DNA of 47,595 nucleotides. It comes from Microtetraspora niveoalba (GTDB lineage: Bacteria; Actinomycetota; Actinomycetes; Streptosporangiales; Streptosporangiaceae). The DNA lies in contig NZ_BBYM01000018.1 in assembly GCF_001570405.1 (NCBI RefSeq), positions 231,523 through 279,117 of the forward strand, written 5' to 3'. The translations under genes were made by a program, and so were the position numbers. This document shows, piece after piece, positions 38,318-47,404 of this stretch (its first letter is position 1; each line of letters begins with the position of its first letter). Under the pieces are notes generated by a model. That model made no database searches. It was not told the origin of the DNA and saw nothing but the letters and a program-made list of their open reading frames with translations.

Positions 38318-39958
38318 ATGTGCGTCCCGATGGCGGGAAACCTGTTGATCCGCAATGCCCACCTGCCGCTGGCCGGGCGGGAGGACGTGTCGTGGTCGAT
38401 CCGGGTCGCGGACGGCCTGATCGCCGAGGTCGTCCCGGACGACGCCGGGGTCCCCGCGGTCCCGGCCGGGACGGACACGCTGGACGCGGAGGGGCGGTCC
38501 GTCCTGCCCGCCTTCGCCGACTCCCACGTCCACGTGCCCGAGTCCGGAGTCGAGCTCCTGCGGTGCGACCTCACCGGCTGCGAGAGCCGGGACGAGGTGC
38601 TGCGGGCGGTCGCCGACTACGCGCGCGCCCATCCCGGCGAGGAGTGGATCCTCGGCCGGGGCTGGGCGCTGCCCCATTTCTCCGAGCGTCCTCCGACCCG
38701 TGAGGAGCTCGACGCCGTCTGCGGCGGGCGTCCCGCGTACCTGGCCAACCGGGACGGCCACAGCGCCTGGGTCAGCACGGCGGCGCTCGACCGGGTGGCG
38801 CCTGAGCTGCTCCGCGACCCGCCGCCCGGCGGCCGCGTGGACCGGGACGCCGACGGCGCGCCGACCGGGCTGCTCCACGAGTCGGCAATGCAGCTCGTCT
38901 CCGACCTGGTCCCGCCGGTCGGCCCGGAGGACCTGCGGCGCGGCCTGCTGGAGGCGCAGCGGCGGATGTTCTCCTACGGGGTGACGTCGTGGCAGGACGC
39001 CATCGTCGGGCCGTTCGTCCCCACCACCGACATCTACGACGTCTACCGCCGCGCCGCCGCCGACGGCAGCCTGCGCGCGCGGGTGACCGGCGCCCTGTGG
39101 TGGCCGCGCGACGCCTCGGAGAGCACCCTCGCCGAGCTGGTCGAGCAGCGTCGGGGCTGCCCGCCGGACTCCCGGTTCTCCTGCACCGCGATCAAGATCA
39201 TGTACGACGGGGTGTGCGAGACCCACACGGCCGCGCTGTCGCGCCCGTACGTCGGCGTCGCCGGCGCGGGCACCGGCCTGACCTTCTTCGACCCCGCCGG
39301 TCTGGCCCGGGCGGTGCCGGAGATGGACGCCGCGGGGTTCGACCTCCACTTCCACGCGATCGGGGACCGCGCGGTCAGCGAGTGTCTCGACCTGGTGGAG
39401 GCGGCGCACCGCGCCAACGGCCCGCGCGACCGGCGGCACCAGCTCGCGCACCTGCAGATCGCGGACGACCGCAGCGTGGCGCGCATGGCCGCGCTCGGCG
39501 TCATCGCGAACGTCCAGCCGTACTGGGCCCAGGCCGACGCGCAGATGCTCGACATGACGATCCCGTACCTGCCCGGCGACCTGGCCGCGCTGCAGTACCG
39601 CTTCCGCACGCTGGAGGACGCGGACGTCCGCCTCGCCTTCGGCAGCGACTGGCCGGTGAGCACGCCCGACCCGATGGACTGGATCCACGTCGCGGTCAAC
39701 CGGAGCCACCCCGGCGAACCGGACGCGCCGCTGTTCGCCCCGGACGAGGCGATCAGCCTGCGCTCCGCGCTGCGGGCCGCCACGGCGGGCTCGGCGTACG
39801 CGCTGCGCCGCGAGCACGAGGCGGGCCGGCTGGAACCGGGCCTCCGCGCGGACGTGGTGGTCCTGGACCGCCGTCTCGACGAGACCGTGCGCGAGGAGAT
39901 CAGCGAGACGCGGGTCGACGTGACCCTGGTCGACGGCGAGCCGGTCTGGACGAGGTGA
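38318..39958 (+). CDS. amidohydrolase family protein, YtcJ-like
   Basis: 546 residues from the ATG at 38318 (alternative ATG 38330). The metal-binding amidohydrolase pattern is His70-x-His72 (ADSHVHV), a lysine-containing strand AIKIMYDGV, HFHAIGDRAV, HQLAHLQI and FGSDWPVSTPDP, in the order of the YtcJ/AepA group. The N- and C-terminal strands make the composite beta-sandwich. Relatives hydrolyse N-substituted amides, formamides or cyclic amides. It is the last gene of the kinase/Pot operon, so it probably acts on the imported compound or a product. Cytoplasmic; no signal peptide. Confidence 0.9.
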   Translation: MCVPMAGNLLIRNAHLPLAGREDVSWSIRVADGLIAEVVPDDAGVPAVPAGTDTLDAEGRSVLPAFADSHVHVPESGVELLRCDLTGCESRDEVLRAVADYARAHPGEEWILGRGWALPHFSERPPTREELDAVCGGRPAYLANRDGHSAWVSTAALDRVAPELLRDPPPGGRVDRDADGAPTGLLHESAMQLVSDLVPPVGPEDLRRGLLEAQRRMFSYGVTSWQDAIVGPFVPTTDIYDVYRRAAADGSLRARVTGALWWPRDASESTLAELVEQRRGCPPDSRFSCTAIKIMYDGVCETHTAALSRPYVGVAGAGTGLTFFDPAGLARAVPEMDAAGFDLHFHAIGDRAVSECLDLVEAAHRANGPRDRRHQLAHLQIADDRSVARMAALGVIANVQPYWAQADAQMLDMTIPYLPGDLAALQYRFRTLEDADVRLAFGSDWPVSTPDPMDWIHVAVNRSHPGEPDAPLFAPDEAISLRSALRAATAGSAYALRREHEAGRLEPGLRADVVVLDRRLDETVREEISETRVDVTLVDGEPVWTR

Positions 39959-40013: not shown

Positions 40014-40307
40014 TCAGGGGTCGAGGGGCTCGTAGGCGGCGACCTCCCGGGAGGCGAGACGGGCGAGGCCGTCGCCGACGACGTACTTCTGGAAGTGCTC
40101 GGAGGCCCGGTGTGCCTCGAAGGCGGCGGCGTCGACGTACCGTTCGTAGATCATGAACCGCCGGGGGTCGTCGGCGGAGACGTGGGCCTCGTAGACGAGG
40201 TTGCCCGGCTCCCGGCGGGACAGCGGGGTGATGGTCCGGATGATGTCGGCGACGGCGTTCTCCTCGCCGTCGCGCGCGGTCCAGACGGCTTGCACGACAT
40301 AGGCCAT
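40014..40307 (-). CDS. small antibiotic-biosynthesis-monooxygenase (ABM) fold protein
   Basis: 97 residues, ATG at 40307. The dimeric ferredoxin-like ABM pattern is present: VVQAVWTARDGEENAVADIIRTITPLSRREPGNLVYEAHVSADDPRRFMIYERYVDAAAFEAHRASEHFQKYV. Relatives are quinol monooxygenases (YgiN), haem-degrading proteins or accessory proteins. The single-domain size and the conserved EPGN and Y-R-V positions give the fold but not the reaction. It is divergent from the glycerol-type operon. Confidence 0.85.
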   Translation of the reverse strand: MAYVVQAVWTARDGEENAVADIIRTITPLSRREPGNLVYEAHVSADDPRRFMIYERYVDAAAFEAHRASEHFQKYVVGDGLARLASREVAAYEPLDP

Positions 40308-40359: not shown

Positions 40360-40389
40360 TTGACATATCGCACGGCCTGGGAATAACGT
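40360..40389 (+). promoter_or_regulatory. promoter of the MFS-kinase-GlpD-GlpP operon
   Basis: -35 TTGACA (40360-40365) and -10 TAACGT (40384-40389) with an 18-base spacer, one of the best promoters visible in the window. Transcription would start near 40396-40399, a few bases before the terminator stem. This puts the terminator in the leader of the mRNA rather than at the end of another gene. Confidence 0.7.
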
Positions 40390-40399
40390 CCCGTCAACC

Positions 40400-40427
40400 G
40401 ACAGGCACAGACGAAGACATCCCTGTC
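40400..40427 (+). promoter_or_regulatory. alternative (antiterminator-like) leader hairpin
   Basis: gacagg (40400-40405) is the exact reverse complement of cctgtc (40422-40427), which lies in the terminator loop. This pairing would enclose the left arm of the terminator and compete with its folding. It may be the form stabilised when GlpP binds. Inferred from base pairing only. Confidence 0.45.
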
Positions 40428-40450
40428 AGTGGTCTTCGTCTGTGCTTTTT
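40405..40450 (+). terminator. leader intrinsic terminator, probable GlpP antitermination target
   Basis: gcacagacgaagac (40405-40418) and gtcttcgtctgtgc (40432-40445) form a perfect 14-bp stem with a 13-base loop and are followed by TTTTT (40446-40450). It lies between the operon promoter and the MFS start codon at 40504, with no gene upstream to terminate on this strand. In Bacillus, GlpP with glycerol-3-phosphate prevents termination at such leader hairpins before glpFK and glpD; a GlpP gene ends this operon. Confidence 0.85.
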
Positions 40451-40503
40451 GTCGTTCCCGGACCGCTGGCTAGGGACTCAACCCCCCTGAAAGGCGGCTG
40501 GGC

Positions 40504-41940
40504 ATGAACGACGGCCCTGCGAACACGAGAACGGCGGTCATCCGCGACGCGGGAGACGCGGCCGGCCTCATCGACACCCTCAAGCGCCTGAGCGGCAGGG
40601 CGAACTGGATCTGGTTCCTCGCCCTGGCGGGACTGTTCCTGGACGCCTACTCCAACGCGGCGCTGGGTGCCGGCCTGTCCCCCATGGTCAAGCAACTGGA
40701 CCTCTCCCCCACCGAGGTCGGCGTGCTCACCGCCATGGCCCCGGCTATCGCGATCGTCTCCAACCCCTTCGGCGGCTGGCTCGCCGCGCGCGTCGGCCGG
40801 GTCAGGCCGCTGCTGATCACGAAGGTCGTCTTCGCGGTCGGCGCGCTGCTGACCGCGGCTGGTTCCGACTTCCAGACGGTCTTCGCCGGCCGGGGCCTGG
40901 TCGGCATCGCGTACGGCATGGACTTCGCCGTCGCGATGGCGCTGCTCGCCGAGTACACCCCCGCCTCCCTCAAGGGCAGGCTCAACTTCTGGCAGGGCGT
41001 CTGGTACACGGCCACGACCGTGAACCTCCTGCTCACGCTCGCCTTCTACCGGTTCGACGTCGGCGCCGACATCTGGCGCTGGTCCGTCGGCTCCTCCGCC
41101 GTCTTCGCGCTCGCCCTGCTCGCCCTGCAGCTCGCCTTCCTGGTGGAGAGCCCGACCTGGCTCGCGTCCAAGGGCCGGCTGAGCGAGGCCGCCGCCAACC
41201 TGCGCCGCATGTACGGCTTCGCCGCGGAGGCGGGGGAACGGGAGCCCGGACAGGCCGGCGGGACCGCCCGCCCGGTCGGGCTGGGGGACGCCGGCGTGCT
41301 CTTCCGCGCCCCCTACCTGCCCCGGACCGTGTTGTCGACCGTCATCTCCCTCACCCAGGCCATGCAGTACTTCGCGGTGGGCTGGTACCTGCCGGTGATC
41401 AGCCTTGAGCTGTTCGGCGAGGAGTTCGAGAAGGCCACCCTCGGCTCCATGGCGTTCAACGCGGTCGGCATCGTCGGCGGCTGCCTGTCGGCGTACGCCG
41501 GCCGCCGGCTCGGCCTGCGGGTCAGCTCGATGGCCGGGTACGCCATGGTGTTCGTCGCCCTGCTGGTCATGGGCGCGACGTTCAAGGAACTGCCCGTCGC
41601 GATCGCCGCGCTGCTGCCGGTCGTGTTCATCTTCTGCCACTCCGCGGGCCCGGGCCCGAACGGCAAGTCGATCGCGGCGCTGTCGTACCGCAGCGACATC
41701 CGCACGCTGGGCACCGGCGTGACCGGGATGCTCGGCAGCCTCGGATCGGTCGCCGGCCTGTACCTGTTCCCGCAGCTCCAGGCGGGCATCGGCGTGGGCG
41801 GCAGCCTGATGGCCCTGTCGGTGGTGCCCCTGGTCGGCCTGCTGACCTGCGTGGCGATCAAGTGGGACCCGACCCGCGTCGCCGTGAACCTCGAAGAGGA
41901 GGCGATCCGCCTCCAGCCCCGTACGCCGGTGTCGGCCTGA
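40504..41940 (+). CDS. MFS transporter, sugar-porter-like
   Basis: 478 residues, ATG at 40504 with gaaaggcgg upstream. Twelve hydrophobic segments are readable. Motif A-like AARVGRVRPLLITKVVF follows segment 2, GRGLVGIAYGMDFAVAMALLAEYTP in segment 4 and the central loop VESPTWLASKGRLSEAAANLRRM resembles PESPRWL of sugar porters. A second-half CLSAYAGRRLGLRVSS repeats motif A. It would import the polyol or glycerol derivative used by the following kinase. It is the first gene behind the leader terminator. Confidence 0.9.
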   Translation: MNDGPANTRTAVIRDAGDAAGLIDTLKRLSGRANWIWFLALAGLFLDAYSNAALGAGLSPMVKQLDLSPTEVGVLTAMAPAIAIVSNPFGGWLAARVGRVRPLLITKVVFAVGALLTAAGSDFQTVFAGRGLVGIAYGMDFAVAMALLAEYTPASLKGRLNFWQGVWYTATTVNLLLTLAFYRFDVGADIWRWSVGSSAVFALALLALQLAFLVESPTWLASKGRLSEAAANLRRMYGFAAEAGEREPGQAGGTARPVGLGDAGVLFRAPYLPRTVLSTVISLTQAMQYFAVGWYLPVISLELFGEEFEKATLGSMAFNAVGIVGGCLSAYAGRRLGLRVSSMAGYAMVFVALLVMGATFKELPVAIAALLPVVFIFCHSAGPGPNGKSIAALSYRSDIRTLGTGVTGMLGSLGSVAGLYLFPQLQAGIGVGGSLMALSVVPLVGLLTCVAIKWDPTRVAVNLEEEAIRLQPRTPVSA

Positions 41941-41943
41941 ACG

Positions 41944-41959
41944 GTGTCCGCCCGGACAC
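41944..41959 (+). promoter_or_regulatory. intercistronic hairpin
   Basis: gtgtcc (41944-41949) and ggacac (41954-41959), loop gccc, just past the MFS stop. A 6-bp stem is too short for a strong terminator; it may tune transcript stability between the transporter and the kinase. Confidence 0.35.
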
Positions 41960-41978
41960 GACGAAAGGACCTTCGCGG

Positions 41979-43538
41979 ATGACCAGGGAACGCCGGCGAG
42001 GCGTACTCAGCATCGATGAGGGCACCACGGGCACCCGCGCCGCCGTCGTCCTCGACGACGGTGGCGCCGCCCCGGCCGCGTACCTGCCCATCTCCGTCCG
42101 CTCGCCCGACCATCTGCGCGTCGAGCAGGACGGCACGGAGATCTGGCTGAACACCGTCCAGGTGTCCCGTGAGGCGCTGGACTGGGCGGCCGCGAACGGC
42201 GTGGAGATCACCGGGGTGTCGATCTCCACCCAGCGGGCCACGGTCCTGCTGTGGGACACGGTGACCGGCGCGCCGCTGAGCCAGGCCGTGGTGTGGCAGG
42301 ACCGCCGGTACGCCGCCCGCCTGCGGGAGTGGGAGCCGGACTGGGACGCCCGCCTCGTCGAGCACACCGGCCGCCCGGTCGGCTCCCGGGCGCCGCTGCT
42401 GTGGGCGGCGGAGGAGGCCGCCGGGAACGAGGCCGCCCGGCGGGCCCACGCCGAGGGGCGGCTCGCGTTCGGATCGGTGGACACCTGGCTGGTCTGGAAG
42501 CTCACCGGCGGCGCCCGCCACGTCATGTCCGCCACGAACGCCGTCGCGGCCGGCGCGTACGACCTGCGGACCGGGGACTGGCACGAGCCGTGGGTGACGT
42601 TCCTCGGCTGCCCGCCCGACCTGCTGCCGCGGATCGTCGACGAGGACGGCGACTTCGGCTTCACCGACCCCTCGGTCCTCGGCGCGCGGCTGCCCATCCT
42701 GTCCGTGATGGGCGACCAGCACGCGGCGATGATCGCGCTCGGCGCCCACCGGGCCGGCCAGGCGACGTGCGTCCACGGGACCGGCACGTTCGTCGACGCC
42801 GTCGCCGGCGACCGGCCGCCCGCCCACGTCCGGCAGGTGCCCGGGGTGCTCACGCTGGTCGGCTGGCGGTCCCGCGGCACGTCCGTGTTCAGCCTGGAGG
42901 GCTACGCCCCGACGACCGGCTCCGCGACCCGCTGGTTGTGCGAGCAGATCGGGCTGTTCGAGTCTCCGGCCGCGCTGGCGCGGCTCGCCCGCGAGCACAC
43001 CGGGCCGACCCGGGTGCGGTTCCTGCCCGCGCTCGCGGGCCTGCGGACCCCGGTCTGGTCGCCGGAGGCCACGGGGGTCCTCACCGGGCTCAGCCTGTCC
43101 ACCACCCGGGCGGAGCTGGCCCGTGCCGTCCTCGACGGTTTCGCCCACTCGGTCTGCGACCTGCTGGACGGAGTGGAGGAGGCCGTGGGCCGCCCCGTCA
43201 CCGACCTGTTCTGCGGCGGCGGGCTCGCCACCAGCGACGTGCTGATGTCCAGTCAGGCGGACCTGATCGGCCGGCCCGTACGGCGGGCCCTCGGCAACGA
43301 GACCGCCAGCCTCCGCGGGGCCGCCTACCTTGGCGGCGTGCGGGCCGGGTTGTGGCCCGCCGTCTCCGCGGCCGTCGCCGGGCTCCCCGCAGGCCCCGTC
43401 TTCGAACCCACCATCTCCGACGGCGAGCGCCGCGAGGCCCGCGCCGAGTGGCGCGACCTGCTGGCCCGCCACATCGCCGCCGCCGGCCCCGGCCCGCGCG
43501 GCACCGAACCCGACTCACAGGAGGAACCACCGTCGTGA
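41979..43538 (+). CDS. FGGY-family kinase, glycerol kinase-related with altered substrate pocket
   Basis: 519 residues from the ATG at 41979 (AAAGGA upstream). FGGY features are ATP-loop SIDEGTTGTR (11-20), VVWQDRR, FGSVDTWLVWKLTGG, VMGDQHAAM (Asp246-Gln247), HGTGTF, SLEGYAPTTGSATRWL and FCGGGLATSDVLMSSQADLIG. The closest template I know is glycerol kinase. Two glycerol contacts of E. coli GlpK are changed: Arg83-Glu84 reads Arg86-Ala87, and the segment holding Tyr135 (PYFSGTK) is shortened to GSRAP. Asp/Gln of GDQ are kept. So it likely phosphorylates a larger or substituted glycerol or another polyol. Its GTGA end overlaps the dehydrogenase gene. Confidence 0.88.
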   Translation: MTRERRRGVLSIDEGTTGTRAAVVLDDGGAAPAAYLPISVRSPDHLRVEQDGTEIWLNTVQVSREALDWAAANGVEITGVSISTQRATVLLWDTVTGAPLSQAVVWQDRRYAARLREWEPDWDARLVEHTGRPVGSRAPLLWAAEEAAGNEAARRAHAEGRLAFGSVDTWLVWKLTGGARHVMSATNAVAAGAYDLRTGDWHEPWVTFLGCPPDLLPRIVDEDGDFGFTDPSVLGARLPILSVMGDQHAAMIALGAHRAGQATCVHGTGTFVDAVAGDRPPAHVRQVPGVLTLVGWRSRGTSVFSLEGYAPTTGSATRWLCEQIGLFESPAALARLAREHTGPTRVRFLPALAGLRTPVWSPEATGVLTGLSLSTTRAELARAVLDGFAHSVCDLLDGVEEAVGRPVTDLFCGGGLATSDVLMSSQADLIGRPVRRALGNETASLRGAAYLGGVRAGLWPAVSAAVAGLPAGPVFEPTISDGERREARAEWRDLLARHIAAAGPGPRGTEPDSQEEPPS

Positions 43539-45217
43539 TCCGGCTTCCCGAACGCAAGGCGAGGTCAGAGACGAGGAGCGCCATCCGCCGAACCGCGCTG
43601 AGGCTCGACCGCCAGGGCCAGATCGAGCGGCTCGCGTCGCGACCCGTCGACGTGCTCGTCGTCGGCGGCGGCGTCACCGGCTGCTACACCGCGCTGGACG
43701 CCGTCACCCGCGGCCTCACCGTGGCGCTGGTGGAGCGGGACGACTTCGCGTCGGGCACGTCCTCCAAGTCGTCCAAGATGGTCCACGGCGGCCTGCGGTA
43801 CATCGAACAGGGCAACCTGCCGCTGGTCCGGCGCTCGCTGCTGGAGCGGCAGCGCTTCCGCCGCAACGCGCCGCACCTGGTGCAGCGGTTGCCGTTCGTC
43901 TTCCCCGTGCTCTCGCAGGACGGCGTCTTCGACGCGCGCATCGCCACGGCCTTCGAGGGCCTGCTCTGGACCTACGACCTCGCCGGGGGATGGCGCATCG
44001 GCAGGCTGCACCAGCGGCTCAGCGTCCCCGAGGTCCTCGCCCGCGCGCCGCGGCTGCGCGCCGACCGGCTCAAGGGCGGGCTGCTCTACTACGACAGCCG
44101 CACGGACGACGCCCGGCTCACCCTGACCATCGCGCGGACCGCCGCGCACTTCGGGGCGACCGTGCTCAACGGCGCCGCCTGCCGCGCCCTCATCCGCGAG
44201 GGCGGCCGGGTGCGCGGCGCGACCGTCGAGGTGGACGGCCGTGAGATCGACGTGCGCGCGGGCGTGGTGATCAACGCCACCGGCGTCTGGTCGGACACGC
44301 TCGACGCCATGTCGGACCCCGGCCACCGGCCCCGGATCCGCCCCGCCAAGGGGGTGCACATCGTGGTGCCGTGGACCAGGCTGCCGATCGACGGCACCGT
44401 CACCGTGCCCATCCCCGGACGGGCGCGCCGCGCCACCTGCACCCGCTGGGGGGACGTGGTGGTCGTCGGCACGACCGACACCGACTACGACGGCTCCCTG
44501 GACGAGGTGCTGTGCACGGGCGCGGAGATGCGGTACCTGCTCGACGGGGCCAACACCGCGTTCGACGCCGGCCTCACCCCCGGCGACGTGGTCGGCTCGA
44601 TCGCCGGACTGCGCCCCCTGGTCGGCGGCAAGGACGGCAAGGAGGGCGCCACCCTCGACATGAGCCGCGACCACCGCGTCTCGACCGACGCGTACGGGCT
44701 GGTCACCGTCACCGGCGGCAAGCTCACCACCAGCCGCCACATGGGCGAGCTCGTGGTGGACGAGGCGCTGAAGGCGCTCGGCCGCCAGGCCCGCTGCCGC
44801 ACCGTCCGCCTCCCCCTCCTCGGGGGCGCGGGGTACGACGCGGAGGCCACCTCGGCCACCGGCGGGCTCGGCGCCCACCTGGGCGGCCGGTACGGCACCG
44901 AGGCCCGCTTCGTCGCCGACCTCTTCAACGAGGACCCCTCCCTCGCCGAGCCCGTCGTCGAGGGCGCCGCCCACCTGCGGGCCGAGGTGGTCTACGCGGC
45001 CCGGTGCGAGCTGGCGCGGAACGTCGACGACGTGCTGTCCCGCCGCACCCGGATGCGGGTGTTCGCCCGGGACCTGTCGGTCGAGGCGGCCCCGGAGGTG
45101 GGCCGGCTGCTCCAGAGGGAGCTCGGGTTGTCCGACGACGAGGTCGCCCGGCAGGTCGACGACTACATCTCCGGCATCGAGCGCGAGAAGACCGTACTGA
45201 TGGAGGGAATTTCATGA
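43535..45217 (+). CDS. FAD-dependent glycerol-3-phosphate dehydrogenase-like (GlpD family)
   Basis: 560 residues from a GTG overlapping the kinase stop; AGGAGG at 43519-43524. FAD site VLVVGGGVTGCYTALDAVTRGLTVALVERDDFASGTSS (GGGVTG 44-49), then SSKMVHGGLRYIEQGNLPLVRRSLLER, NATGVWSD, KGVHIVVP, GTTDTDYDG and VTGGKLTTSRHMGE, the GlpD series. The C-terminal helical cap (~430-545) is present (LRAEVVYAARCELARNVDDVLSRRTRM). GlpD oxidises glycerol-3-phosphate to DHAP with quinone as acceptor at the membrane. With the altered kinase it may oxidise a substituted glycerol phosphate. It ends ATGA with the next gene. Confidence 0.92.
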   Translation: MIRLPERKARSETRSAIRRTALRLDRQGQIERLASRPVDVLVVGGGVTGCYTALDAVTRGLTVALVERDDFASGTSSKSSKMVHGGLRYIEQGNLPLVRRSLLERQRFRRNAPHLVQRLPFVFPVLSQDGVFDARIATAFEGLLWTYDLAGGWRIGRLHQRLSVPEVLARAPRLRADRLKGGLLYYDSRTDDARLTLTIARTAAHFGATVLNGAACRALIREGGRVRGATVEVDGREIDVRAGVVINATGVWSDTLDAMSDPGHRPRIRPAKGVHIVVPWTRLPIDGTVTVPIPGRARRATCTRWGDVVVVGTTDTDYDGSLDEVLCTGAEMRYLLDGANTAFDAGLTPGDVVGSIAGLRPLVGGKDGKEGATLDMSRDHRVSTDAYGLVTVTGGKLTTSRHMGELVVDEALKALGRQARCRTVRLPLLGGAGYDAEATSATGGLGAHLGGRYGTEARFVADLFNEDPSLAEPVVEGAAHLRAEVVYAARCELARNVDDVLSRRTRMRVFARDLSVEAAPEVGRLLQRELGLSDDEVARQVDDYISGIEREKTVLMEGIS

Positions 45218-46776
45218 TCAGCAGGCAGACCGTCACCCACCCGTTCAACCGGGGCGACTACGTCGTGGGCGCGCCCACCCCGCCGCGCTGGGCCGCGGAC
45301 TGCCCGCCGGGGAAGGGGAAGGCCAGCCTGCAGGGCGACGTGGTCCCCGTTCCCGACGCGGTCGTCGCCGAGTTGCGCGCGGTCGCCGCCGCGGTCCACA
45401 CGGACCGGGACGAGGTGATCCGGCGCACCCGCGACTGGTGGGCGGGCACGTCCATCGGGGAGACCGACGGCGACCCCGCCACCCCGGACGCCGTGATCGT
45501 CGAGGCGGCCGACGAGGAGCAGGTGGCCGCGGTCGTCCGCGTCTGCCACGCGCACGGCATCCCGCTGACGGTCTCGGCCGGCCGCAGCAACGTCCTCGGC
45601 GCCGCCCTGCCGGTGTTCGGCGGGGTCGTGCTGGACGTCTGCCGGCTCAACCGGATCGTCTCCTTCGACGCCGAGTCGATGATCGTCGAGGTGCAGGCGG
45701 GCATGTTCGGCGACCTGTTCGAGAAGGAGCTGCAGGAGGTCCACGGCGCCACCACCGGGCACTGGCCGTCCGCCTTCGCCATCTCCACGGTCGGCGGCTG
45801 GGCGGCCTGCCGCGGCGCCGGCCAGCTCTCCACCCGGTACGGGAAGATCGAGGACATGGTCGTCGGGCTGGACGTGGTCCTCCCCGACGGGAGCACCGCC
45901 ACGTACGGCGCCTATCCCCGGGCGGCGGTCGGCCCGGACCTCCGCCAGCTCTTCATCGGCTCCGAGGGCACCCTGGGCGTGATCACCCGGCTGCGGCTGC
46001 GCACCCACCGGCTGCCCGAGTACGCGGCCGGTCTCGCGTACGGGTTCGAGACGTTCGCGGCGGGGCTGGACGCCTGCCGGGAGATCCTCCAGCGCGGGGC
46101 GACCCCCGCCGTGCTGCGCCTGTACGACGCGCACGAGAGCGGCACCCACTTCGGCGAGCCGGGCACCAACCTGCTGCTCATCGCCGACGAGGGGGACCCC
46201 GTCCTGGTGGACGCCGCCATGGCCGTGGTCGAGGAGGTCTGCCGGGAGCGGGCGTCGGTGACGCTCGACGGCGACGCCGTCCTCGCCCGCTGGCTGGACG
46301 AGCGCATGCTCGTCGGCAAGTCCGGCGACGGTTTCGCCAAGGGCCCCGGCTTCGTCGCCGACACCTGTGAGATCGCCGCGCCGTGGTCGTCGCTGGCGGC
46401 GATCTACGACGACGTGGTCGCGGCGATCGAGGCGGTGCCGGGGACGCTGCGCGCGTCCGCCCACCAGTCGCACGCGTACACCGACGGAGCCTGCCTGTAC
46501 TTCTCGCTGCGCGGCGACGTGGAGCGGCCCCGCCGCCGCGAGTGGTACCGGGCCGCCTGGGACGCCGCCAACGAGGTGCTGATCCGGCACGGCGCGGCGA
46601 TCAGCCACCACCACGGGGTCGGGCTGCTGCGCTCGCCGTACGTGGAGCGCTCGCTGGGCAGCGGATTCGCCACCCTGGTGGCGGTCAAGCAGGCTCTCGA
46701 CCCGGCCGGGATCATGAACCCCGGGAAGCTGGGGCTGCCCAGCCGCTTCGGGGCCGGACCGTCCGAGCAGCGCTGA
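45214..46776 (+). CDS. FAD-binding oxidase, alkyl-dihydroxyacetonephosphate synthase-like
   Basis: 520 residues, ATG overlapping the GlpD-like stop, ggaggg upstream. The VAO/PCMH FAD domain reads VIVEAADEEQVAAVVRVCHAHGIPLTVSAGRSNVLGAA, then GHWPSAFAISTVGGWAACRGAGQLSTRYGKIEDMV and GSEGTLGVITRLRLRTHRLP. The C-terminal part has the alkyl-DHAP synthase hallmarks: Tyr429 in CLYFSLRG and the triple histidine His465-467 in AISHHHGVG. In AGPS these residues exchange the acyl of acyl-DHAP for a fatty alcohol to make ether lipid precursors. Coupled to a kinase and GlpD-like enzyme, it suggests alkylglycerol or glycerol-ether metabolism. An unrelated oxidase role cannot be excluded. Confidence 0.85.
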   Translation: MISRQTVTHPFNRGDYVVGAPTPPRWAADCPPGKGKASLQGDVVPVPDAVVAELRAVAAAVHTDRDEVIRRTRDWWAGTSIGETDGDPATPDAVIVEAADEEQVAAVVRVCHAHGIPLTVSAGRSNVLGAALPVFGGVVLDVCRLNRIVSFDAESMIVEVQAGMFGDLFEKELQEVHGATTGHWPSAFAISTVGGWAACRGAGQLSTRYGKIEDMVVGLDVVLPDGSTATYGAYPRAAVGPDLRQLFIGSEGTLGVITRLRLRTHRLPEYAAGLAYGFETFAAGLDACREILQRGATPAVLRLYDAHESGTHFGEPGTNLLLIADEGDPVLVDAAMAVVEEVCRERASVTLDGDAVLARWLDERMLVGKSGDGFAKGPGFVADTCEIAAPWSSLAAIYDDVVAAIEAVPGTLRASAHQSHAYTDGACLYFSLRGDVERPRRREWYRAAWDAANEVLIRHGAAISHHHGVGLLRSPYVERSLGSGFATLVAVKQALDPAGIMNPGKLGLPSRFGAGPSEQR

Positions 46777-46792
46777 CGAATAAGGTGGATCG

Positions 46793-47404
46793 GTGAACCC
46801 TCGTCCCAAACGTCCCGTGGATCGGCGGCTGCTTGCCGCACTGGCGGAGCATCCGGTGATGGCGTCGCTCGTCGGTGCCGAGATGGCGGACCGGTTCACC
46901 ACGACCTCGACCCCGCTCGGCATCCTCGCCTCGGTCCCGCTCGGCGACCTGGAGGCGACGGTCCGGCGCACGGCCGCCGCCGGGAAGATCGTGTTCGTCA
47001 ACATGGACTCGACCCCCGGCCTGGGCCACGACCCCGGCGCCCTGACGTACCTCAAGGGCATCGGGGCGGTCGGGGTCTGCTCCACCCGGGCGGCGATCGT
47101 CGAGCGGGCGGCCGGCCTGGGCCTGCTCGCCATGCAGAAGGTGTTCGTGACCGACCGCTCCAACCTGCAGCGCAGTTTCCAGTCCATCGCCCGGTCCCAC
47201 CCGGACCTGGTCCAGCTCATGCCGGCGGTCGTGCTGCCCTACGTGGAACGGCAGGCCAAGGAGCTGGGGGTGCCCTACCTCGCGGCCGGATTCGTCCAGA
47301 GCCCGGCGGACGTGGCGGGGGCGCTCGCCCACGGCGCCGCCGGGGTCTGCACCTCGGACGAGGACCTGTGGGAGCTGCGCCGGTCGGCCCTGCGTGCCTT
47401 CTGA
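46793..47404 (+). CDS. GlpP-family glycerol-3-phosphate-responsive antiterminator
   Basis: 203 residues from the GTG at 46793 (aaggtgg upstream), 16 bases past the previous stop. The family pattern is clear: LLAALAEHPVMASL, FTTTSTPLGILASVPLGDLEATVRRTAAAGKIVFVNMDSTPGLGHDPGALTYLKGIGAVGVCSTRAAIVERAAGLGLLAMQKVFVTDRSNLQRSF, then PDLVQLMPAVVLPYV, LGVPYLAAGFVQSPADVAGALAHGAAGVCTSD. B. subtilis GlpP (~190 residues) is a TIM-barrel-like protein that binds leader RNA when glycerol-3-phosphate is present and stops termination. Here it is the last gene behind its likely target at 40405-40450, so its own synthesis would be under the same control. Confidence 0.92.
   Translation: MNPRPKRPVDRRLLAALAEHPVMASLVGAEMADRFTTTSTPLGILASVPLGDLEATVRRTAAAGKIVFVNMDSTPGLGHDPGALTYLKGIGAVGVCSTRAAIVERAAGLGLLAMQKVFVTDRSNLQRSFQSIARSHPDLVQLMPAVVLPYVERQAKELGVPYLAAGFVQSPADVAGALAHGAAGVCTSDEDLWELRRSALRAF

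Follow-up and report, generated by a model that had tools for sequence, protein, structure and literature searches.

A conserved leader element apparently tied to GlpP precedes a five-gene operon in actinomycetes and betaproteobacteria

The operon and its leader

A 47,595-nucleotide stretch of the genome of Microtetraspora niveoalba (contig NZ_BBYM01000018.1), which is the whole stretch that was analysed and is called the window below, carries on its + strand a five-gene operon whose distal gene encodes a protein of the GlpP antiterminator family, preceded by a leader in which a promoter is followed by a hairpin and a T run. An initial annotation, made from the window's sequence alone, had described a promoter, a perfect stem of 14 bp with T5 and five genes, the last of the GlpP family, and had proposed that this GlpP acts on the leader of its own operon; by sequence and by Pfam, all of these parts are where it had placed them.

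The operon begins with a major facilitator superfamily (MFS) transporter gene (40504-41940; Pfam Sugar_tr, 7.4e-34), followed by an FGGY kinase gene related to GlpK (41979-43538; Pfam FGGY), which scores 332 bits against a GlpK cut-off of 590. The third gene encodes a GlpD-like flavin adenine dinucleotide (FAD) dehydrogenase (43535-45217; Pfam DAO, 3.6e-53, and DAO_C, 5.7e-24), and the fourth a FAD enzyme resembling alkyl-dihydroxyacetone phosphate (alkyl-DHAP) synthase (45214-46776; Pfam FAD_binding_4/FAD-oxidase_C; PDB 2uuu, E 5.1e-51). The GlpP-family antiterminator (46793-47404) matches PF04309 (G3P_antiterm) with E 2.6e-42 and the solved structures 3kts (9.4e-19) and 1vkf (1.3e-12), and an NCBIfam search of the protein returned zero matches. 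Two of the junctions are 4-nt overlaps and the remaining gaps are 38 and 16 nt.

As read from the sequence, the promoter (40360-40389) consists of TTGACA (40360-40365), an 18-nt spacer and TAACGT (40384-40389), the latter agreeing with TATAAT at 3/6 positions. The putative conditional terminator (40405-40450), recognized by reading and by folding, pairs GCACAGACGAAGAC (40405-40418) with GTCTTCGTCTGTGC (40432-40445) in the perfect 14-bp stem, encloses a 13-nt loop (40419-40431) containing CTGTCAG and ends in TTTTT (40446-40450); its stem begins 15 nt past the -10 hexamer, not the roughly 10 bases first given. The window hairpin is far beyond chance, because its minimum free energy of -31.5 compares with -16.3 +/- 3.2 for shuffled sequences (z -4.7), with 0/200 shuffles as good. 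Four further segments of the leader matter to what follows. A candidate GlpP-binding strand (40402-40418), carrying the triplets CAG, CAG and AAG 6 nt apart (starting at 40402, 40408 and 40414), runs on into the stem's 5' arm. The predicted switch strand (40420-40433), made up of the loop and the first bases of the 3' arm, is complementary to an element that we call D, ACCGCTGGCTAGGGA (40462-40476), which can pair either with this loop strand or with the ribosome-binding-site region of the first gene, AAAGGCGG (40490-40497), this region being the partner of D in the default fold.

A scan of the whole window for hairpins with T runs (stem of at least 7 bp, loop up to 20, T4 within 3 nt) found the leader hairpin as the sole match on the + strand and two weaker matches on the - strand, so the claim that a T-run terminator is unique in the window stands for the + strand and fails in the strict sense. 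A simple terminator and promoter scan of the window had returned neither the leader hairpin nor the leader promoter, because the loop exceeds the limit of that scan and the -10 hexamer is too weak. Against Rfam 15 the window gave no match over the gathering score, the leader producing just sub-threshold matches to small nucleolar RNAs and microRNAs.

Conservation of the leader element

Relatives were collected by a GlpP search of genome contigs, from which the best 80 loci of 106 relatives were taken. The 76 fetched loci with a readable operon MFS gene, together with the window, make up the set of 77 leaders; left out were a locus with an internal operon deletion (L003), two at contig ends (L033 and L079) and one partial match (L044). 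Within the set, L001 duplicates the DNA of the window itself, and L056 was excluded from the fold and duplex tests since its start could not be placed. The 76 loci come from Streptosporangiales, Pseudonocardiales, Streptomycetaceae, Nocardiopsis, Micrococcales, one Nocardia and Burkholderiales.

The leader element, which combines the NAG triplets with a hairpin whose one arm contains AGA, whose loop reads CTGTNRG and whose other arm is complementary to the first, is present in 77/77 leaders from Actinomycetota and Betaproteobacteria, 75 of them recognized by pattern and two (L034 and L046) added in the later analysis of pairing between the loop and D. Thus the leader hairpin is conserved next to GlpP genes throughout this comparison, where its absence would have told against the initial annotation, and the layout with GlpP as the last gene of its own operon recurs at the 76 fetched loci. 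AGA and CTGT..G are invariant across 58 aligned leader sequences, and a search with the element pattern through both strands of 1.5 Mb of fetched DNA matched 74/76 leaders and no other place. A promoter pattern (TTG[AC][CA], 16 to 20 nt, TANNNT) occurs in 72/77 leaders, compared to 0.7% of shuffles, the five that miss it (L026-L030) being all from Streptomyces.

Two of the cases outside the set keep parts of the operon. At L003/L124 (Microtetraspora malaysiensis; G333), everything from early in the MFS gene through part of the fourth gene is deleted, and the leader and GlpP remain about 1 kb apart. In Pseudoclavibacter helvolus (L044), the matches are the end of an alkyl-DHAP-synthase-like gene and GlpP, and the leader element was not found at the locus; here GlpP may persist after the loss of its target.

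Co-occurrence of the element and GlpP

For the survey of families, GlpP proper was defined by E<1e-30. Among 250 genomes of the window's family, 21 have GlpP, and the leader element was found in 20/21 of these versus 3 of the 229 genomes without GlpP, the latter three being weak partial matches (E 0.003-0.008) at about chance level. Seventeen of the 20 matches have E<1e-5; the other three (G320, G359 and G384; E 0.002-0.003) share a contig with GlpP and precede it there; the two that were read, G320 and G384, stand directly before the MFS gene. In the family of the Cupriavidus locus L064, 150 genomes gave the element in 12/12 with GlpP and 0/138 without. Together, these two family-wide draws bear out the link between GlpP and the leader that the initial annotation had drawn from a single locus, and on such sequence comparison the tie of the element to GlpP appears strongly supported. 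A class-wide survey of 296 genomes found both GlpP and the element in the window's own genome only, and therefore the system is of scattered occurrence and not a common one. A more sensitive scan of seven genomes gave one strong copy of the element in each. The hairpin is very probably a switch operated by the GlpP of the last gene, and the switch recurs here and there among actinomycetes and betaproteobacteria, at a distance from the bacteria of the Bacillus type in which GlpP control is known.

The NAG strand and element D

The array NAG-N3-NAG-N3..5-NAGA, a pattern written after viewing the leaders, is present in 75/77 of them compared to 0.5% of shuffled segments. A repeat of the GAGA-N-GAGA type, a post hoc pattern too, lies at the terminator's 5' arm in 5/6 glp leaders of Bacillota versus 3.2% of shuffles; the six are glpF and glpD of Cytobacillus (annotated) and glpF and glpD of Listeria, glpD of Paenibacillus and glpF of Acetoanaerobium (by similarity). 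The NAG strand is the candidate site because a protein bound to the 5' arm would prevent the hairpin, and we regard it as the probable, sequence-predicted binding site of GlpP. A pairing of the CAGG/CAGAT segment at the foot of the stem with the loop was also tried as a classical antiterminator and rejected: 4/53 unique pairs reached p<=0.05 with boundaries that clipped the betaproteobacterial segment, and with these corrected there was no lineage preference (rank 431/720). The CAGG/CAGAT segment fits better as the first NAG triplet.

The complementarity of the loop and D stands out in the duplex energies, which gave p<=0.05 in 64/66 unique pairs against single-base shuffles (mean z 3.2 in a first shuffle test). 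When loops and Ds of six lineage groups were exchanged, D preferred the loop of its own lineage in 6/6, and by total the true pairing of lineages ranks 1 of 720 permutations; loop and D covary at the group level. The complementarity of D to the Shine-Dalgarno (SD) region reached p<=0.05 in 46/68 pairs and ranks 2 of 720, and by default the leaders fold into this pairing in each of the six groups (means 8.4-12.5 bp).

With the 5' arm blocked, as by a bound protein, and the transcript ending short of the ribosome-binding site, the pairing of loop and D (at least 5 bp) formed in 76/76 leaders, with no shuffle control alongside, and its mean rose from 0.9 to 9.9 bp. In folds that end at start+4, the same block raised the unpaired fraction of the ribosome-binding site from 0.28 to 0.47, compared to 0.28 with the whole hairpin removed. 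In these start+4 folds, to which the loop-shuffle control was confined, the opening of the site exceeded the loop-shuffled controls in 57/74 unique leaders (Streptosporangiales 17/17, Pseudonocardiales 4/7, Streptomycetaceae 5/9, betaproteobacterial 28/35, Micrococcales/Nocardia 3/5 and Nocardiopsis 0/1).

A proposed mechanism and its alternatives

We consider it quite probable that the leader is an attenuator operated by GlpP, with the terminator as one output and translation probably as another. Without ligand, the hairpin would form once transcribed, and the T run of the window and of certain other actinomycetes would stop RNA polymerase; in those transcripts that read through, D would be free to mask the first gene's ribosome-binding site. 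With a phosphorylated ligand, GlpP would grip the NAG-triplet strand, i.e. the 5' arm, and so block the terminator, and the freed loop and 3' arm would pair with D as it emerges, such that the ribosome-binding site, which is made last, stays open. Expression would then supply more GlpP from the last gene of the operon, making the induction self-reinforcing. The binding of GlpP, the antitermination, the translational output and the positive feedback are the steps that we infer.

The initial annotation had made the T run a central feature, and this part of it did not hold. Measured as the longest run of T 10 to 40 nt past the start of the CTGT motif, a run of at least five is found in 15/77 leaders (Streptosporangiales 6/17, Pseudonocardiales 3/7, Streptomycetaceae 2/9, Micrococcales/Nocardia 4/5, Nocardiopsis 0/1 and betaproteobacterial 0/38) and varies even among close relatives of the window. 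What is conserved at the core is the hairpin with its loop, together with D, and the T run does not belong to it. Since the T run is not conserved, intrinsic termination cannot be the whole mechanism.

Besides this scarcity of T runs, a number of observations weigh against the attenuator as proposed. The 77 leaders are not independent, because GlpP was the query that drew the relatives, and the shuffle rates flatter the NAG and GAGA patterns, both of which were chosen post hoc. RNAalifold on the MAFFT alignment of the leaders gave zero consensus pairs, the loop length shifting the register, and for that reason the model used to search for the element (R1) was sequence-only; single leaders, folded one by one, do form structure. 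A fixed-spacing pattern had one extra match in the window's genome, not above control. In the surveys, G351 has a GlpP of another subfamily without the element, no other operon gene being matched in the 12 kb read, and G402 has a second copy of the element away from the operon. As to D, the z of its pairing with the loop is above 3 in just 39/77 leaders in the first shuffle test, the loop prefers the D of its own lineage in just 4/6, and Pseudonocardiales loops pair better with the D of Streptosporangiales; moreover, of the six groups, one is a single leader (Nocardiopsis) and one combines Micrococcales with a Nocardia. A passage of the review PMC7430163 has GlpP binding 'the antiterminator', which favors a structured target over a single strand.

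The folding results on translation belong with these points. Using a fuller mask on the 5' arm, the site opened by more than 0.1 in 49/76 leaders at start+4, 22/76 at start+20 and 12/76 at start+40, and closed in 0, 3 and 4 leaders, respectively; a shorter mask gave opening in 45, 19 and 15 of 76 at the same boundaries, and the first mask, at start+18, gave opening by more than 0.05 in 21/76. The window's own site opens from 0.33 to 0.53 in folds with the first mask, and also in part of the boundary series, and fails to open in a second version of the folding or with 27 nt or more of coding sequence, the outcome being set by the mask and the 3' end. The equilibrium translational switch is therefore weak and dependent on the folded coding length, and because the 3' boundary decides the equilibrium result, we treat a translational output as plausible and not firmer. 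The switch may instead hinge on the order of synthesis, since the pairing of loop and D forms in 76/76 leaders before the ribosome-binding site is made, or D may serve another role.

One alternative would be plain antitermination as in Bacillus, with the pairing of D and the ribosome-binding site either incidental or concerned with mRNA stability only. The window's stem with T5, the 15/77 leaders with T runs and the weak translational switching at equilibrium all agree with it, as do the antitermination and glpD mRNA stabilization reported for B. subtilis GlpP in passages of PMC9604022 and PMC7430163, but we hold it to be rather unlikely, since it gives no reason for a complementarity of loop and D that is kept and covaries between lineages even where, as in the betaproteobacterial leaders, there is no T run. 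The initial annotation had likewise read the locus as antitermination; the link of GlpP to the leader stands, and the reading was incomplete in that it missed D and its overlap with the ribosome-binding site. The opposite emphasis, in which control is mainly translational or acts through translation-coupled Rho termination, the hairpin hides the loop strand from D, and T-run termination is a local addition in some actinomycetes, is likewise a doubtful proposition. It fits the presence of loop and D, and not the T run, in 77 leaders and the default pairing of D with the SD region in all six groups, whereas the unusually long, T-tailed hairpin of the window, the T tails of most Micrococcales/Nocardia leaders and the absence of robust site release in equilibrium folds speak against it.

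It could also be argued that the hairpin is a constitutive attenuator, or a 5' stability hairpin, that GlpP never contacts, the association of the two merely reflecting co-transfer, for the element opens, and the GlpP gene closes, an operon that travels as a unit. We think this very unlikely, since co-transfer would not explain why the NAG spacing and the loop sequence are conserved between phyla, nor the similar repeat in glp leaders of Bacillota, nor the retention of leader and GlpP at L003/L124, where the middle of the operon has been deleted. The link between GlpP and the leader drawn in the initial annotation is essentially right and holds more widely than first thought, and the mechanism is probably richer than plain antitermination.

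Comparison with known regulators

LicT, SacY and GlcT act on RAT hairpins, an antiterminator hairpin being stabilized by the protein; they are alike in that a protein blocks a leader terminator, and the corresponding pairing here, that of the stem foot with the loop, is no better than chance. GylR is a DNA-binding repressor and is not known to be an RNA switch. The present operon resembles the GylR-controlled glycerol operon of Streptomyces in that an actinomycete places genes of the glycerol type under control by their substrate, GylR being the glycerol regulator of that genus according to a passage of PMC9732521.

In B. subtilis, as described in parts of PMC9604022, GlpP binds glycerol-3-phosphate and disrupts terminators in the leaders that follow the promoters of glpD, glpFK and glpT, where the paper also speaks of a GlpP-binding site; stabilization of the glpD mRNA by GlpP is noted in passages of PMC7430163 and PMC3997798. 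The system described here shares with it a GlpP-family protein and a leader terminator directly past the promoter, and possibly, with the Bacillota leaders that were read, a purine-rich repeat in the 5' arm. It differs in that GlpP is the last gene of its own operon, which lies outside Bacillota and is not the canonical glycerol operon, that the T run is often missing, and that D can cover the loop strand or the ribosome-binding site, D not having been sought in Bacillota. HutP of B. subtilis, which binds NAG triplets and prevents the hut terminator (passages of PMC7430163), is similar in its spaced triplets and in the principle that a metabolite-loaded protein blocks terminator formation, but it is an unrelated protein whose two triplet clusters lie 20 nt apart, whereas here a single hairpin arm holds all three triplets in about 20 nt; in the regulator of the window, Pfam found only G3P_antiterm (PF04309) and no HutP domain.

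Among the matches listed in the open-licence PubMed Central literature, none was visibly concerned with a GlpP RNA target in Actinomycetota or Proteobacteria, with one outside Bacillota, or with an operon of these five genes; the glpP of PMC11223650 is, by the passage concerned, a same-named ABC permease and not the antiterminator. With GlpP control described for B. subtilis, the set of 77 leaders with their sharply defined element amounts to a testable recognition code for GlpP, and suggests that the operon took GlpP regulation with it as it spread to actinomycetes and betaproteobacteria. Should D act in the way we propose, a single protein that senses a metabolite would govern both transcription and translation through the release of a strand, which would make a portable protein-gated switch for GC-rich hosts.

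The kinase and the possible ligand

The initial annotation had pointed to glycerol-3-phosphate, through GlpP of Bacillus, as the inducer, which the kinase of the operon makes less certain. This enzyme scores well under the GlpK cut-off and differs from ordinary glycerol kinases: in 73/73 aligned operon kinases the QRET motif, whose residues contact glycerol in the E. coli enzyme, has A, C or S in place of its glutamate, the arginine being kept (4 of the 77 were dropped from the alignment for stops in the translated match), and the loop after QRET is three residues shorter in the ten operon kinase rows printed. The genes controlled here are thus not those of ordinary glycerol uptake, kinase and dehydrogenase, and with the glycerol-contact glutamate lost from the kinase, the inducer may not be plain glycerol-3-phosphate. 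A canonical glycerol kinase is encoded elsewhere in the window's genome (C9, 736 bits), with no element match nearby. The closest solved relatives of the fourth protein are alkyl-DHAP synthases, and its SHHHGVG motif is retained.

The unusual kinase and this relative of alkyl-DHAP synthase point to an unassigned pathway that uses some derivative of glycerol, a glyceryl ether perhaps, which is a reasonable guess from the sequences and no more; the ligand of GlpP of the window's type may be the phosphate of such a derivative. All of this can be joined into one scenario, improbable as a whole: a three-strand switch found across phyla, in which one GlpP binding event would both block the terminator and hand the freed strand to the anti-ribosome-binding-site element, purely translational in many hosts, with the phosphate of a larger glycerol derivative, not glycerol-3-phosphate, as ligand, and with an operon that would degrade glyceryl ethers through a widened kinase, oxidation at C2 by the GlpD-like enzyme and cleavage to DHAP and an alcohol by the alkyl-DHAP-synthase-like enzyme acting in reverse.

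Other loci and neighboring genes

The second copy of the element in G402 (L123:4029) is a complete leader without the operon and with no MFS match downstream; the next identified gene on the + strand encodes a zinc alcohol dehydrogenase, and one farther on resembles phospholipase C. GlpP genes of other subfamilies have neighborhoods of their own. On a Streptomyces clavuligerus plasmid (L085), genes for a short-chain dehydrogenase/reductase (SDR), a FAD oxidoreductase and an FGGY kinase lie downstream of GlpP; in Enterococcus gilvus (L086), the genes are those of an SDR, an ABC transporter, a FAD oxidoreductase and an electron transfer flavoprotein; and in G351 (L120) there is an MFS gene. These three loci suggest that there are more GlpP regulons without a role in glycerol metabolism.

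Upstream of the operon in the window, a small divergent open reading frame on the - strand starts near 40307, about 50 nt upstream of the promoter, and looks by eye like an antibiotic-biosynthesis-monooxygenase type. Farther upstream on the + strand, the gene at 38318-39958, amidohydrolase-like by eye, follows genes resembling ABC transporter permeases and is not obviously a member of the operon.

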